Assembly: GCF_002843385.1 (NCBI RefSeq)
Contig: NZ_MVDE01000002.1
Coordinates: 62,001-126,000 of the forward strand
From: Labilibaculum manganireducens
GTDB taxonomy: Bacteria; Bacteroidota; Bacteroidia; Bacteroidales; Marinifilaceae
Direction of reading: 5' to 3'
DNA length: 64,000 nucleotides
Shown: piece by piece, positions 12,008-44,095 of the stretch
How the letters are laid out: each line of letters starts with the position of its first letter
Numbering within the stretch: position 1 is the stretch's first letter
Notes under the pieces: generated by a model
Told to the model about the DNA's origin: nothing
What the model saw: the letters and a program-made list of their open reading frames with translations, nothing else
Databases searched by the model: none
Made by a program: the position numbers and the translations under genes

Positions 12008-12862
12008 TTATGCCTTCGTTCTTTTTTCTTGTATATATTTTTTAAATCTATCATCATTGATTAATGCAAGCTTCAAAACACACTTCCAATGATTGAAACC
12101 ATATGCTTTTTGATCGTTAATAATGTTTTGCTTGATCTCATCAAAAATGAAATCTATTGATAATTTATTGAGACCACATAAAATTAAATTTTCAATCTCA
12201 GAATAATCTTCATTTGCTTTTAGTCTCATTCTCTCCAATAAATAAAGCTTTTCGAAATGACTTTTTATTAATGCGAACGTGTCAACATTTATCTCATATT
12301 TATTAAAAAGAAAATATTCAAAGTCAATTTCATTATTATCATCAAATTCAAACTTTACAAAAAGGTATTGCTCATTGGGAAGATTATCTAAATACAAGTT
12401 TAGAAACAGTTTTATACCATTACTCTCTAAATATTTATTCTTGTATGAATTACATTGAGAACAACAGGGGAATAAATTTTTGGGATTTACAATGAATTCA
12501 GGAAACTCACCTTGTGGCAGAACATGATCTAAGGTATTAGCGCTATTAATTGTACAGTTTTGGCAAGTATATCGTATAGTCCTTTCTTGTAATTTCTCAA
12601 TATGACCTCTTACGTCGATTATTGTTTTGCTTTGAAAATTATAAAGACTTTGTAAATCGAGTTTAAACGGAATATAGAATTGACGCTTAGGAATATTTTC
12701 TATATCATTTTCACTAAAGTGTACATCGTAGTCTAAATAATCTTTACGCACATTATTTTCAATATGGATTAAATTTTCTTTCGAATCACTAGCATTCTTC
12801 CTTTTAACAGCATTTAAATGAACATCTATGGAATTATGAGGATAAGATTTAAGATTTTTCAT
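12008..12862 (-). CDS. ptuB: HNH endonuclease, PtuB-like (Septu-type defence)
   Basis: A 284-residue protein with an HNH nuclease domain in the middle: a zinc knuckle CQNC at 100-103, the catalytic LDHVLP (His113), NPKNL (Asn129) and CCSQCNSYK (133-141). The remainder is helical and AT-rich. Its start overlaps the end of the ATPase gene by 14 bp, so the two are one operon. The pairing of a RecF/OLD-like ATPase with a small HNH nuclease of this kind is the Septu (PtuA-PtuB) anti-phage arrangement, also found attached to some retrons. No reverse transcriptase is present here. Confidence 0.75.
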   Translation of the reverse strand: MKNLKSYPHNSIDVHLNAVKRKNASDSKENLIHIENNVRKDYLDYDVHFSENDIENIPKRQFYIPFKLDLQSLYNFQSKTIIDVRGHIEKLQERTIRYTCQNCTINSANTLDHVLPQGEFPEFIVNPKNLFPCCSQCNSYKNKYLESNGIKLFLNLYLDNLPNEQYLFVKFEFDDNNEIDFEYFLFNKYEINVDTFALIKSHFEKLYLLERMRLKANEDYSEIENLILCGLNKLSIDFIFDEIKQNIINDQKAYGFNHWKCVLKLALINDDRFKKYIQEKRTKA

Positions 12863-14753
12863 GTTTTTGTTGAATTAATGCTTTAATAAATAACCTCAGA
12901 TTTAGACTAATAGGCACATCATCAGATTCTATATGAGAAATAATGTCTTCAAATGACTTACCACTTGAGATCATATCTTTTAATAATGACGTATGATATT
13001 TATCAACTTCTCTACGACCAAATACTTCTTCAGTTATAACAGTTAGGTTCTCACCAAATGATTCCTGTTCAAGATGTCTAATTTGAGCTATGGATTCATT
13101 TCTTTCAATTATAATTACATTTCGAGATGGTATCTCCTGAACAACTAATGGTGAATGTGTTCCTATTATACAAAATGATTCAAATTTTTCAGTCAATTTA
13201 AAAATTGTATTCATTAATTGACTTATAGCATTAGGATGTAAATGTGTTTCTGGTTCATCAAAAAGAATCAATGAGTTTAATCTGATCTGTGCAATAACTT
13301 CAGTTAACACAAATAATAGGATATTCTGACCAGAACTTAATTGCCTATAAAATATTGAAAAATTAGAAACATTGAATTCGTGAGTATCTTCGAATGCTAA
13401 ATCTAACATGTCTACCGTAAGAAATGATTTTAATATTCTGTACCAAATTGTATCTAAATCTCTTTCATTTATAATATTTACTGATTCTAAAAAACGTTGT
13501 TTAAGTTCTTCTTCAGTTAACCAAATCCCATCGCTTTTCTTTAGTCCACAGTAAGAATAATTGTATGCAAGATTAGCTTCTGGTAATTTGAAATGATCAA
13601 AAAAGCTATAAGAAATTGTAAATATTTTAGCAAATAAAGGTTTGTGTGGGCTTATATTTTTAGGTTCAGTAAGTGATAATTCGTTTGCTAACTCGGTAAG
13701 AAACGTAGTTTTACCGGAACCATTTTTTCCAATTAGTGCGTAAACTCTATTTGTATTCCAAGGGTTATCATCTTCAAAGTGAAAACTTAAATCAATACTA
13801 TTCGTTGCATATGGAAGAGTAATGTCATAAGTGAATTTATATCTATCTTTTATATCAATACCTGCTATTGAAAATCTAACAGTACGTAATATTTTTTCTG
13901 CAGTGTTGACTCTAATTAAAGATTTAACAAAACCTCTCTCTTCTTCAAACTCTTCAGCAATTTTCGGAAATAATGCTGAATCACGCAATGCAAGAAATAC
14001 ACTTTGATATTGATTACCTATAGTCTTCTGTAAATTTGAGTAGTAATTAAATGACTGGCCTAAGGAACAAAAATCTTTAGATAATGTATAAAATTTTTCA
14101 GATAAATGTTCGTTAGTAATCATTTCACCTTTTTTGTGAATCTTAACTTCACCAATCCTAATTGATGATCTATCATCTGCACAATAATCAAGATAAAATT
14201 GACTATAATAGTCATAATCATTCCAAAAACCATTATCTAATACAAAACAAGGAAATGTTTTCTCTTTTTGGAAACTTGATAAATAAAAAGGGATAGAATT
14301 CTCCTTAATATCTACAGGTAAACCTATTGTATCTAGGCCTTCTTTAATTTTATAAACTGGAAGATTCTCAAAATAATCAGATATAACTAATTTAAGAGTT
14401 GCTCTAGATAAAATGTAATTTAAATTTCCAACATATAATTCGATATCATCTTTGTCAATACGAACTTCAGGAGATACAACTAATTCTAGAAATGAAATAA
14501 AGTACATTTCATCATCATCAATTAACCGAAATCTGTCAATAAAAGTTTCTTCCAATGTCCAATCATCATTATTTACTAAATGCTGGTAGGCATCACCCTT
14601 AGCGTCTTTATAACGAGAATCTTCTGAAGGCATAGAACGTAAGTCCCATATTTTTTCTAGAAAATTTATAATTCTATCATCATAATTACCCAAAAAGGTG
14701 GGTAGACTCAATACTTTATCGAATGTTTGTTTCTTTATATGTTTTGGTATCAT
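12849..14753 (-). CDS. ptuA: ABC/OLD-like ATPase, PtuA-like (Septu-type defence)
   Basis: A 634-residue SMC/RecF-type ATPase. Walker A is GKNGSGKTT (342-350), the ABC signature LSSGQ (472-476), Walker B LILFDEPETHLHP (495-507) and the H-loop THS (532-534). About 340 residues precede the ATPase core, longer than in simple OLD-type ATPases. The first 100 residues may resemble the N-terminal domains of AbiJ-type abortive-infection proteins, which is a weak impression. The gene is visibly more AT-rich than the flanking respiratory genes, consistent with horizontal acquisition. It is cotranscribed with the HNH gene. Confidence 0.75.
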   Translation of the reverse strand: MIPKHIKKQTFDKVLSLPTFLGNYDDRIINFLEKIWDLRSMPSEDSRYKDAKGDAYQHLVNNDDWTLEETFIDRFRLIDDDEMYFISFLELVVSPEVRIDKDDIELYVGNLNYILSRATLKLVISDYFENLPVYKIKEGLDTIGLPVDIKENSIPFYLSSFQKEKTFPCFVLDNGFWNDYDYYSQFYLDYCADDRSSIRIGEVKIHKKGEMITNEHLSEKFYTLSKDFCSLGQSFNYYSNLQKTIGNQYQSVFLALRDSALFPKIAEEFEEERGFVKSLIRVNTAEKILRTVRFSIAGIDIKDRYKFTYDITLPYATNSIDLSFHFEDDNPWNTNRVYALIGKNGSGKTTFLTELANELSLTEPKNISPHKPLFAKIFTISYSFFDHFKLPEANLAYNYSYCGLKKSDGIWLTEEELKQRFLESVNIINERDLDTIWYRILKSFLTVDMLDLAFEDTHEFNVSNFSIFYRQLSSGQNILLFVLTEVIAQIRLNSLILFDEPETHLHPNAISQLMNTIFKLTEKFESFCIIGTHSPLVVQEIPSRNVIIIERNESIAQIRHLEQESFGENLTVITEEVFGRREVDKYHTSLLKDMISSGKSFEDIISHIESDDVPISLNLRLFIKALIQQKHEKS

Positions 14754-15229
14754 TTATTATTTTGAATTTCTAATGGCAATCAAATTCTGCGTGAATGACA
14801 TTATTTTGGCTCATATTATTTACAATTAATACTTATTCACCTTTCCCCTAGAATGAGGCATAACGTTTTTGAATGTCTATGTACATTTATATTTCTTTTA
14901 TCGATCTTAATACATCTCATCGGTAAAAGCTTTACTAAAGTAGTAAATCGAACTGATGATTCAGGCTGTCAAAGCTGCCAACTTGCAGGCCTAAAGAATA
15001 ATTGCCTAAAAAAGGCTTTTTTATCTGGGGCGAGAATCAAAAAGGGAACTGCTTTTTCCTATTTGCTTTGTGTTGTTTCAGCATCTTGCGGTATTATTTA
15101 TTTTATGTGACTAAAGCCTGTTTATTACTTTTATAATATCAGTTGCTTAAAAGCAACAGCAATAGATGTTTTGCATTTGTTTGATTTCACTTCTTCAATC
15201 ATTTGTATTTTCAATTATCAGTTGCCTGA

Positions 15230-15310
15230 AACTCTGTCAGGTCTATCGACTCTGACAGGTTATTTTAAGTAAATGAAATCCTGACAGAGTCCGAAGGTCC
15301 TGTCAGAGTT
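15230..15310. repeat. Clustered direct and inverted 11-bp repeats (ACTCTGACAGG type)
   Basis: Two related words, ACTCTGTCAGG (15231-15241) and ACTCTGACAGG (15249-15259), are followed by their complements CCTGACAGAGT (15280-15290) and CCTGTCAGAGTT (15299-15310). They can form two nested hairpins. From memory, similar words occur as dispersed intergenic repeats in Bacteroidota genomes. A second copy was not found in this window. Confidence 0.6.
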
Positions 15311-15474
15311 GAATTTGAAAAAAGCAAAGCAATAGATGCTGAACTTTTCTCTTTTAATCAGCAAAAGCTTTGTATTTTTTTATCTATTGCAGTTTGGCTT
15401 TAGGCCACTGAAATTAAAATAATCCAGAGACTGATTTGTTTTTGTATTTATTGAGTTTTCAAAATTTCATTTCG

Positions 15475-15871
15475 TGCTTTCACTAAATAGTTATAGAGTG
15501 AAAACTCAAGTTTTCATGCTTTCACTAAATAGTTATTGAGTGAAAGCTCAAGTTTTCATGCTTTCACTAAATAGTCATGGGGTTAAAACTCAAGTTTTCG
15601 TACTTTCACTAAATAGTTATAGAGTGAAAACTCAAGTTTTTAGGCTTTGTACTCAGTACATTGAGTCAAAACCCAAGTTTTTAGGCTTTGTACTCAGTAC
15701 ATTGAGTCAAAACCCAAGTTTTTAAGCTTTGTACTGAGTACATTGAGTCAAAACCCAGGTTTTTAAGCTTTGTACTGAGTACATTGTGTCAAAACTGAGG
15801 TTTTCAGGCTTTGCTACAATTAGCATGGGGCAAAAACTCAATTTTTCATGCTTTCCCTAAATGGGTAAAAG
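15475..15871. repeat. Tandem array of nine 41-42 bp units plus a partial tenth, with covarying stems
   Basis: Units 1-4 are 42 bp (15475-15642), units 5-8 are 41 bp (15643-15806), unit 9 is 42 bp (15807-15848) and a partial unit 10 ends at 15871. Most units hold two dyads. The first is TTTCACT with AGTGAAA in unit types 1, 2 and 4. In units 5 and 6 both arms change together to TTTG-ACTCA with TGAGTCAAA, and in unit 9 to TTTGC with GCAAA. The second is GAAAACT-CA-AGTTTTC or the AAAAC/GTTTT equivalent. Paired changes in both arms suggest that structure, not just sequence, is maintained. There are no spacers, so this is not a CRISPR array. Confidence 0.85.
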
Positions 15872-15904
15872 AAAAAACATCTTTGTCCTCAAAGATGTTT
15901 TTGT
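15872..15904 (-). terminator. Intrinsic terminator after the HMA lipoprotein gene
   Basis: AAAACATCTTTG (15874-15885), a TCCT loop and CAAAGATGTTTT (15890-15901) form a perfect 12-bp stem ending 27 bp before the stop of the minus-strand HMA gene. The minus-strand transcript continues into a U-rich tail. Confidence 0.75.
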
Positions 15905-15928
15905 AATACAGATTCGCAGCATCTTATT

Positions 15929-16246
15929 TTACTTCTCAACACTATAGCCAATGGCTTCAATTTGCTGGGCTATTTCTTCATGGGTAACTTTATCTTTTTC
16001 CACCTTAATGGTAACCTTATTGTTTGTATGGGAAGCTTCCACTTCAACAACACCATCAATTTGTTTCAAACCATTTTTAATTGTGTTTTCGCAGCCCGTG
16101 CAGGTCATCCCGGTTACGGTTAGTTCCATTGTTTCATAGTCAACAACTTGTGTTGTTTCTGTTTTTGTACTCTCTGCTTTTTTAGTATTCGACTGACAAG
16201 CAGTTAAAAAACCAACTGCAAATACTACTATTAGAATTTTTCTCAT
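15929..16246 (-). CDS. HMA-domain lipoprotein, probable copper-binding protein
   Basis: A 105-residue protein with a lipoprotein signal (FLTAC, Cys17), a Thr/Lys-rich linker and a complete heavy-metal-associated domain. GMTCTGC carries the CxxC metal ligands at 49 and 52, and a typical VTHEEIAQQIEAIGYSVEK C-terminus closes the fold. The anchored form suggests periplasmic or outer-envelope copper or another soft-metal capture, not cytoplasmic delivery. It lies upstream of the ctaB/cox operon on the map, and copper supply for the oxidase is a reasonable guess. It has its own terminator. Confidence 0.85.
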   Translation of the reverse strand: MRKILIVVFAVGFLTACQSNTKKAESTKTETTQVVDYETMELTVTGMTCTGCENTIKNGLKQIDGVVEVEASHTNNKVTIKVEKDKVTHEEIAQQIEAIGYSVEK

Positions 16247-43652: not shown

Positions 43653-43756
43653 GAAAAATTTTACTGACTACATTATATGATGTTGATTTTACCTGACCTA
43701 ACATGCAACGCACACTGTCAATTTTGCATGAATGAGTAAGAATTGCAGCTGTGGGG

Positions 43757-43924
43757 AATGTGATTGTAGTCTTCGGGAGCGAAAATGTAAGTCAAAACAC
43801 TTCCAATGTTGCTTCCGGGAATTTGAATGTTGATAAAGGGATCGTAAATGTTTCTTTTGGGAATCTGAATGTAGACCAAGGAAATGAAAATGTAAGTGTT
43901 GGAATTCCATATGTTGTTTGCGGG
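43757..43924 (+). repeat. Eight tandem 21-bp units, heptad-coding if translated
   Basis: Eight contiguous units of exactly 21 bp with the shared core xAATGTxxxxxxxxGGG. Read in frame on the plus strand, each unit gives seven residues of the form x-x-N-V-x-x-G (NLNVDKG, IVNVSFG, NLNVDQG, NENVSVG). The only in-frame start is a GTG at 43751 with no obvious ribosome site, and the frame ends at 43936. The array is called as DNA, not as a gene, and it could be a remnant of a repeat protein. Confidence 0.75.
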
Positions 43925-44095
43925 AATTCAGCATAACCTGTGTTAAAAGAACACCCTATGTTATGCAATTTCAAGAATTACTCTTTATTTTGGTTTTGTC
44001 AGTTTTGATTGTCTGGCTGTCTAGTATTGTTGCTAATGTAGTACATTAAATTTTCCCCTTGGGATATGGAAATAACATACGAAGGAAAAAATAAT

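Follow-up and report, generated by a model that had tools for sequence, protein, structure and literature searches.

Iteron and operator arrays that lie beside the gene of the protein that binds them, as in parC/ParR, consist of direct repeats phased with the helix, and at type III toxin-antitoxin (TA) loci a terminator stands between the repeats and the toxin gene. P. gingivalis belongs to the same phylum as Labilibaculum manganireducens, the organism analyzed here. The cited portion of PMC4596501 describes 464/PgRS of P. gingivalis as MITE-like elements with 10–20 copies and 41-nucleotide tandem direct repeats, while the cited portions of two other papers describe type III TA repeats as varying greatly between loci in sequence and length (PMC4627078), and REPs as repeat families dispersed through the genome with which RAYTs are associated (PMC3733652). 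A gene of the DUF6261 family (PF19775) and the private array upstream of it form a two-part unit for which we found no description in the literature on 41-bp Bacteroidetes repeats, type III repeats, BrickBuilt, PgRS, phased operators and ParR/parC; the sole mention of DUF6261 that we found was, judging by its title on Streptococcus, unrelated.

The array in the window and its surroundings

The window analyzed is a 64,000-nucleotide stretch of contig NZ_MVDE01000002.1, and it contains an intergenic tandem array at 15476–15871. The first-pass annotation, made from the letters alone, had reported nine contiguous units of 41–42 bp plus a partial tenth, and this description was borne out. The array, its words and its flanks are laid out as follows, in window coordinates.

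15430–15475, minus strand: stretch resembling the end of a DUF6261 leader (AACTCAATAAATAC...), identified by eye
15476–15871, minus strand (the reading direction of gene-linked homologues): putative solo DUF6261-type array
15476–15517, 15518–15559, 15560–15601, 15602–15643: units 1–4, 42 bp each
15644–15684, 15685–15725, 15726–15766, 15767–15807: units 5–8, 41 bp each
15808–15849: unit 9, 42 bp
15850–15871: partial unit 10
15482–15491, 15524–15533, 15566–15575, 15608–15617, unstranded: inner dyad word ACTAAATAGT, units 1–4
15649–15659, 15690–15700, 15731–15741, 15772–15782, unstranded: inner dyad word GTACT(C/G)AGTAC (GTACTCAGTAC or GTACTGAGTAC), units 5–8
15813–15824, unstranded: inner dyad word GCTACAATTAGC, unit 9
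15855–15865, unstranded: inner dyad word CCCTAAATGGG, partial unit 10
15501–15514 (first) to 15833–15846 (last), unstranded: A/T-rich dyads of AAAACTCAAGTTTT type, one per full unit
15873–15902, minus strand: hairpin resembling an intrinsic terminator, past the HMA gene and immediately ahead of the array on that strand
15929–16246, minus strand: HMA (heavy-metal-associated) domain gene, the neighbour used for locating the orthologous locus

All words of the array are symmetric, and the A/T-rich dyads are centred ~21 bp from the inner ones. Folding of 15466–15920 gave z-scores against shuffles of −8.7 and −10.3 on the two strands, values to which the terminator hairpin inside this region contributes, and the array is far from chance. 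Scanning the window with Rfam 15 at gathering score returned 0 matches, in keeping with the earlier remark that the array fits no repeat class familiar to that annotation.

The strand of the terminator-like hairpin (15902–15873) corresponds to the sense strand in gene-linked homologues. Gene-linked copies are followed by a AACTCAATAAATAC-type leader end and then the ATG; at the window array no gene comes after this stretch, and a tblastn search of the window gave no DUF6261-like match. The flank at 15430–15475 recurs beside six further solo arrays in the genus.

Some 720 bp separate the array from a two-gene candidate defence system (12008–14753), upstream of which it lies. PADLOC assigned this pair to PDC-M01A/B (AbiJ_NTD3 and a PtuA-like AAA ATPase, with a partner giving a PtuB-like match), which agrees with its initial description as a defence operon. 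We rejected this operon as the partner of the array because its ATPase was found in only one of nine genus genomes, that of the window, while two others (G003 and G006) keep arrays at the same locus.

Three further repeats were observed in the window. A high-copy REP-like element (GGCTAAAGCC, CAATAGATG) at 15120–15420 adjoins the array, is also found without it, and has at least 10 matches in six of nine genus genomes. At 518–2173, a 413-bp tandem repeat runs across successive ORFs of ~138 aa, probably tandemly duplicated small genes. A second intergenic array, of AATGT...GGGA type with a 21/42-bp period, occupies 43740–43930; it recurs at 90–96% identity in four other genomes of the genus (G006, G007, G008 and G002), more weakly in G004, and in two further places (L271, G000:C12:106719–106856; L269, G003:C20:43046–43161). 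None of the places of this type coincided with a DUF6261 match, and they showed no clear dyads.

DUF6261 genes and their upstream arrays

Gene-linked homologues of the window array precede a gene with a DUF6261 product. Arrays homologous to that of the window are also present at C34 and C32 of the same genome, and matches were found in 15 of 96 genomes searched, this one included. Named relatives of the array-linked gene come from Labilibaculum, Ancylomarina, Marinifilum and Marinifilaceae MAGs, homologous array copies were seen within this Marinifilaceae subfamily, and an array of G003, from the genus of the window, is alike to that of Labilibaculum filiforme (L037, L059). The genome of the window has nine DUF6261 matches. 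Two other genomes, G148 and G137, have 18 and 15, spread over many contigs, 18 being the most in any one genome.

We assembled 102 DUF6261 genes, several of them close relatives: 8 from the genome of the window, 19 from named Marinifilaceae loci and 75 from order- and phylum-wide searches, in which DUF6261 matches occurred in 15 of 149 and 6 of 296 genomes (own genome counted in each); a fragment (L057) and a partial gene (L078) were excluded. For each gene, the 700 bp upstream were examined for direct repeats with z ≥ 6 relative to 20 Markov shuffles per region. Significant repeats preceded 79 of the 102 genes and were not detected at the remaining 23; the Marinifilaceae subfamily contributes 21 of the 102, and among the other 81 genes 58 were significant. 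The best period was 40–44 bp in 68 of the 79, 81–86 in nine and 122–128 in two, with no others, such that every period equals one, two or three times 41–43 bp. Downstream of the genes, significant repeats were seen in 6 of 98 cases, one with a period of 40–44 bp and one of 122–128. The 40–44 bp class was thus found upstream of 68/102 genes vs. downstream of 1/98 (Fisher 2.4e-26, ignoring gene relatedness). Two loci with significant downstream repeats, L058 and L132 (periods 124 and 43), may carry the arrays of neighbouring modules there. The association of DUF6261 genes with arrays spans the order and reaches a few genomes outside it.

Mean unit spacing was 41.68 bp, or 4 × 10.42, so that one unit spans an integral number of helical turns (four), as in phased arrays. 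In the 79 arrays, the distance to the ATG ranged from 18 to 428 bp, with a median of 97. We rejected coding repeats, because neither 41 nor 43 is divisible by three.

The constancy of the pitch is not shared by the sequence. For 48 of 51 arrays another array existed in the same genome; the best identity to a same-genome array averaged 0.51 and reached at most 0.64, compared with 0.48 for arrays of other genomes and 0.82 within an array. By these values the repeat sequence is private to each gene, even among paralogs of one genome. Across 20 Marinifilaceae modules, word similarity tracked protein identity (r 0.42, permutation p 0.0005), a correlation limited by the fact that common descent alone would give some of it; three module pairs at ≥90% protein identity had a word similarity of 1.00, and six pairs at 80–89% ranged from 0.34 to 0.74.

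These identities bear on the idea that the arrays are REP- or MITE-type dispersed elements brought by a transposase. The REP-like element next to the window array would fit such an origin, as would a REP-associated-tyrosine-transposase-like gene near the C32 module (56 bits, below the model cut-off of 80). That element nevertheless occurs in many copies without an array, and same-genome arrays of different DUF6261 genes are unrelated in sequence, rather than one sequence dispersed through the genome. We therefore regard a REP or MITE origin as largely refuted and very improbable.

Dyads, covariation and the form of the signal

To establish which positions pair, we cut 142 distinct homologous units by their A-run, T-run and AAAG-type boundary, the dyad word playing no part in the choice; removal of one misplaced row left 141 units from 36 arrays, with equal array weights and duplicate loci skipped. 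Pairs within the A/T runs are partly fixed by selection, because units were chosen by these runs. All columns at least 4 apart were compared and ranked by excess Watson-Crick pairing. The top seven column pairs, observed vs. expected, were 27-36 (0.95 vs. 0.35), 28-35 (0.90 vs. 0.34), 29-34 (0.70 vs. 0.32), 8-13 (0.87 vs. 0.54), 26-37 (0.66 vs. 0.33), 27-32 (0.66 vs. 0.37) and 7-14 (0.93 vs. 0.74). Two dyads hold six of these, 27-32 being the outsider, and the dyad 26-29/34-37 has a four-base centre without covariation (30-33, 0.56 vs. 0.54; 31-32, 0.23 vs. 0.48).

The first-pass annotation had placed the covariation in outer hairpin arms and had inferred selection for pairing, in RNA or cruciform DNA. 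Within the window the arm changes are partly visible: pairing of TTTG-ACTCA with TGAGTCAAA is perfect in units 5 and 6 and imperfect in units 7 (one mismatch) and 8 (two mismatches). Over the 141 units and 36 arrays, however, these arms do not covary (mean Watson-Crick pairing 0.55 vs. 0.56 when shuffled; 0.46 vs. 0.47 in the bulged register), and we rejected them as a covarying stem in both registers. What covaries is a short dyad that the arms overlap and that changes its word across the units of the window array; its words elsewhere in homologous arrays include TACCTAAATAGGTA, TGTCAAAATGACA and TTCCTAAACAGGAA. The second stem of the annotation (AAAACTCAAGTTTT) is indeed kept, and its two inner pairs covary (0.93 vs. 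0.76; 0.87 vs. 0.52), although its outer A/T pairs provide no evidence because they hardly vary. Thus, a constraint on pairing or on dyad symmetry holds up, whereas the arms named were the wrong ones and pairing as RNA is not favoured by the data below.

We then consider dyads in 76 of the 79 arrays, L110, L123 and L124 being dropped as too short. Short dyads numbered 384 vs. 138 ± 15 in column-permuted controls, with loops of 3–4 the most enriched, so that dyad-symmetric sites like those of phased operators and iterons are present. Distances between dyad centres peaked at 20–21 bp (87 vs. about 2.4 expected) and also at 41–43 and 61–63, from which it follows that dyads recur every two helical turns. 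This half-unit spacing is not fully independent evidence, because one long dyad per period forces a second at half the unit length; the Marinifilaceae unit, however, contains two short dyads that are distinct from each other.

A rival account makes the array a 5′ leader of DUF6261 mRNA, each 41–42 nt unit folding into hairpins that are bound or processed by the protein or inhibit it, much as in type III TA systems; the window copy would then be a silent relic or an RNA sponge. The placement of the repeats, a median of 97 bp ahead of the ATG of one small protein gene, suits this account, as do their strong folding energy and the enriched 3–4 base loops. Were the sense RNA folded, mismatches that form G.U should exceed A.C mismatches; in this comparison, run without a positive control, G.T and A.C mismatches were about equally frequent overall (136 vs. 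118 in all arrays, p 0.29; 89 vs. 93 outside Marinifilaceae; 67 vs. 71 within arrays; 0.22 vs. 0.26 summed over four word pairs of Marinifilaceae units), and RNA pairing is for that reason not favoured. The Marinifilaceae subset alone leans to G.T (47 vs. 25, p 0.013), in rows that are not independent and have a skewed composition.

Changes within arrays point the same way. In 44 arrays whose consensus arm was at least 5, one-sided changes numbered 255, and two-sided changes kept the pair in only 15 cases and broke it in 25; conservation was 0.887 in arms, 0.818 in loops and 0.847 in linkers. Dyad spacing and pitch suit B-DNA and not A-form helices, a terminator-like site lies between array and gene in just 5 of 79 cases, and the window array itself sits behind a terminator-like hairpin. 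On the other side, 12 of 21 Marinifilaceae modules have a Bacteroidetes-type promoter match ahead of the array, and none of the 21 has one in the interval from array to ATG (counts made without a shuffled control), and those Marinifilaceae arrays are therefore probably transcribed; outside the family, promoter position was uninformative (9 upstream, 10 between and 5 inside, in 58 arrays). Taken together, the patterns favour a signal in double-stranded DNA over RNA hairpins, and we consider the RNA account rather unlikely.

DUF6261 was the only Pfam match above cut-off in the two members scanned, with no ToxN-family match, which also speaks against a type III-like module. An AlphaFold2 model was all-helical and poor (pLDDT 56), and a Foldseek search with it gave no match at E ≤ 0.001; a PDB sequence search gave 7 matches, the best at E 0.039, and no significant solved relative. 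No DNA-binding fold was recognised by way of this poor model, Foldseek or PDB sequences. Searches of phages and plasmids (tblastn with one DUF6261 protein) and of viral contigs (with the Marinifilaceae alignment) yielded nothing useful.

Solo arrays, a proposed reading and known systems

Arrays without an adjacent gene are common in the genus: of 21 clusters of at least two pattern hits in 9 genomes, 7 precede a full-length DUF6261 gene of the subfamily and 14 do not. The orthologous locus at the metal gene holds, in G003, a partial unit and five full ones that all carry ACTATTTAGT; in G006 there are two GCTAATTGTAGC units, and in G004 a promoter-like site and a decayed array, with no gene in the stretch read. 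G002, G007 and G008 lack an array there and show a DUF6261 match of 16–41 residues at 41–69% identity, with E values of 0.002–0.11 in a small database where a chance-like match in G001 scored 0.55; the G001 stretch ends too soon for comparison and the G005 locus was not found. Downstream of the metal gene in G008, G007 and G002 (L223, L224 and L225), we also observed CCACGTGTGG/CCACACGTGG repeats with AAAAGC spacing beside the DUF6261-like fragment. Elsewhere, in G007 (C1:36k) and G008 (C89), an array is followed by a 20-residue match to the DUF6261 N-terminus (E 0.24). Judging from the gene-less arrays and these weak fragments, arrays seem to persist longer than the genes they belonged to. 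For the window array the best reading is a solo array with no DUF6261 gene beside it, its own gene having probably been lost.

Eight of the nine full window units carry words that also occur in the DUF6261 array at C32, and the word of the DUF6261 array at C15 of G003 is the only one that G003 has at the same locus. Comparing by eye the solo words of G000, G002, G003 and G005–G008 with DUF6261 arrays of the same genome, we found agreement for both solo arrays in G000, the single one in G002, and one of two each in G003 and G007; matching was partial in G005 and G008 and failed in G006, whose solo-array words match no full-length module of the subfamily found. Because of this failure, binding of solo arrays in trans stays a suggestion.

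At this one locus, both copy number and words turn over quickly from species to species. That, and the abundance of solo copies (14 of 21 clusters), would be expected of a neutral or selfish tandem repeat, amplified because its dyads promote slippage and read by no protein. A mutational process of this sort leaves unexplained how unrelated sequences share one fixed pitch and why they are linked to one gene family, and we judge it improbable.

The reading that we prefer, and hold to be somewhat more probable than its negation, is that DUF6261 reads its own helically phased array as duplex DNA, the window array being a solo copy. We infer, beyond the observed association, that DUF6261, or a complex containing it, would bind the array as double-stranded DNA, with dimers on dyads two helical turns apart and on the same face of the helix, and that binding would most likely control DUF6261's own gene. 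Each paralog would have its own dyad word, and with the same protein reading both half-sites, word changes would be symmetric and appear as covariation. In the window array the dyads are intact and most words are shared with the C32 array, and it may still be bound in trans. Its position behind a terminator-like hairpin and the symmetry of all its words were counted for a DNA signal. Several words in one array, as in the window, speak against a strictly sequence-specific binder. Also to be set against DNA binding are the 23 of 102 genes without a significant array, the lack of a recognised DNA-binding fold, the weakness of the gene fragments, the word mismatch in G006, the G.T lean of Marinifilaceae and the probable transcription of their arrays, which would suit an RNA role too.

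More tentatively, DUF6261 and its array might constitute a self-addressing module, in which paralogs of a fast-diverging protein family with their own words at a four-turn pitch coexist as many mutually insulated copies and solo arrays serve as extra addresses in trans. In any case, a protein family listed without a function gains a near-constant DNA neighbour, and with it a direct handle on its role. A fixed pitch with free sequence amounts to a natural experiment on how protein and DNA words may evolve jointly, in dozens of presumably orthogonal DUF6261-array pairs, some of them sharing one genome. If binding holds true, these pairs would be ready-made orthogonal DNA addresses; if the RNA account does, they would represent a novel type of partnership between repeat RNA and protein.

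Among known systems, type III TA loci (ToxIN, CptIN, TenpIN) differ from DUF6261 loci in that the latter rarely have a terminator between array and gene, have no Pfam match to the ToxN/Kid-like endoribonucleases in the two members scanned, and show no overall wobble bias, with one Marinifilaceae subset leaning to G.T. The two are alike in having a short tandem-repeat array of locus-variable sequence upstream of one small protein gene, as is the case for the 79 array-bearing DUF6261 genes, although repeat length is variable in type III loci according to the cited portion of PMC4627078 and fixed near 41.7 bp here. The 464/PgRS repeats share the 41-nucleotide tandem arrangement and the phylum, and differ in being described, in the cited portion of PMC4596501, as part of MITE-like elements of 10–20 copies. 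REP/RAYT systems likewise involve short palindromes between genes (PMC3733652, cited portion), whereas DUF6261 arrays are private to each gene. The arrays resemble those of parC/ParR in their helix-phased direct repeats adjoining the presumed binder's gene, and are set apart by a four-turn pitch, a dyad every two turns, a binder that is predicted, and the private words of many paralogs in one genome.
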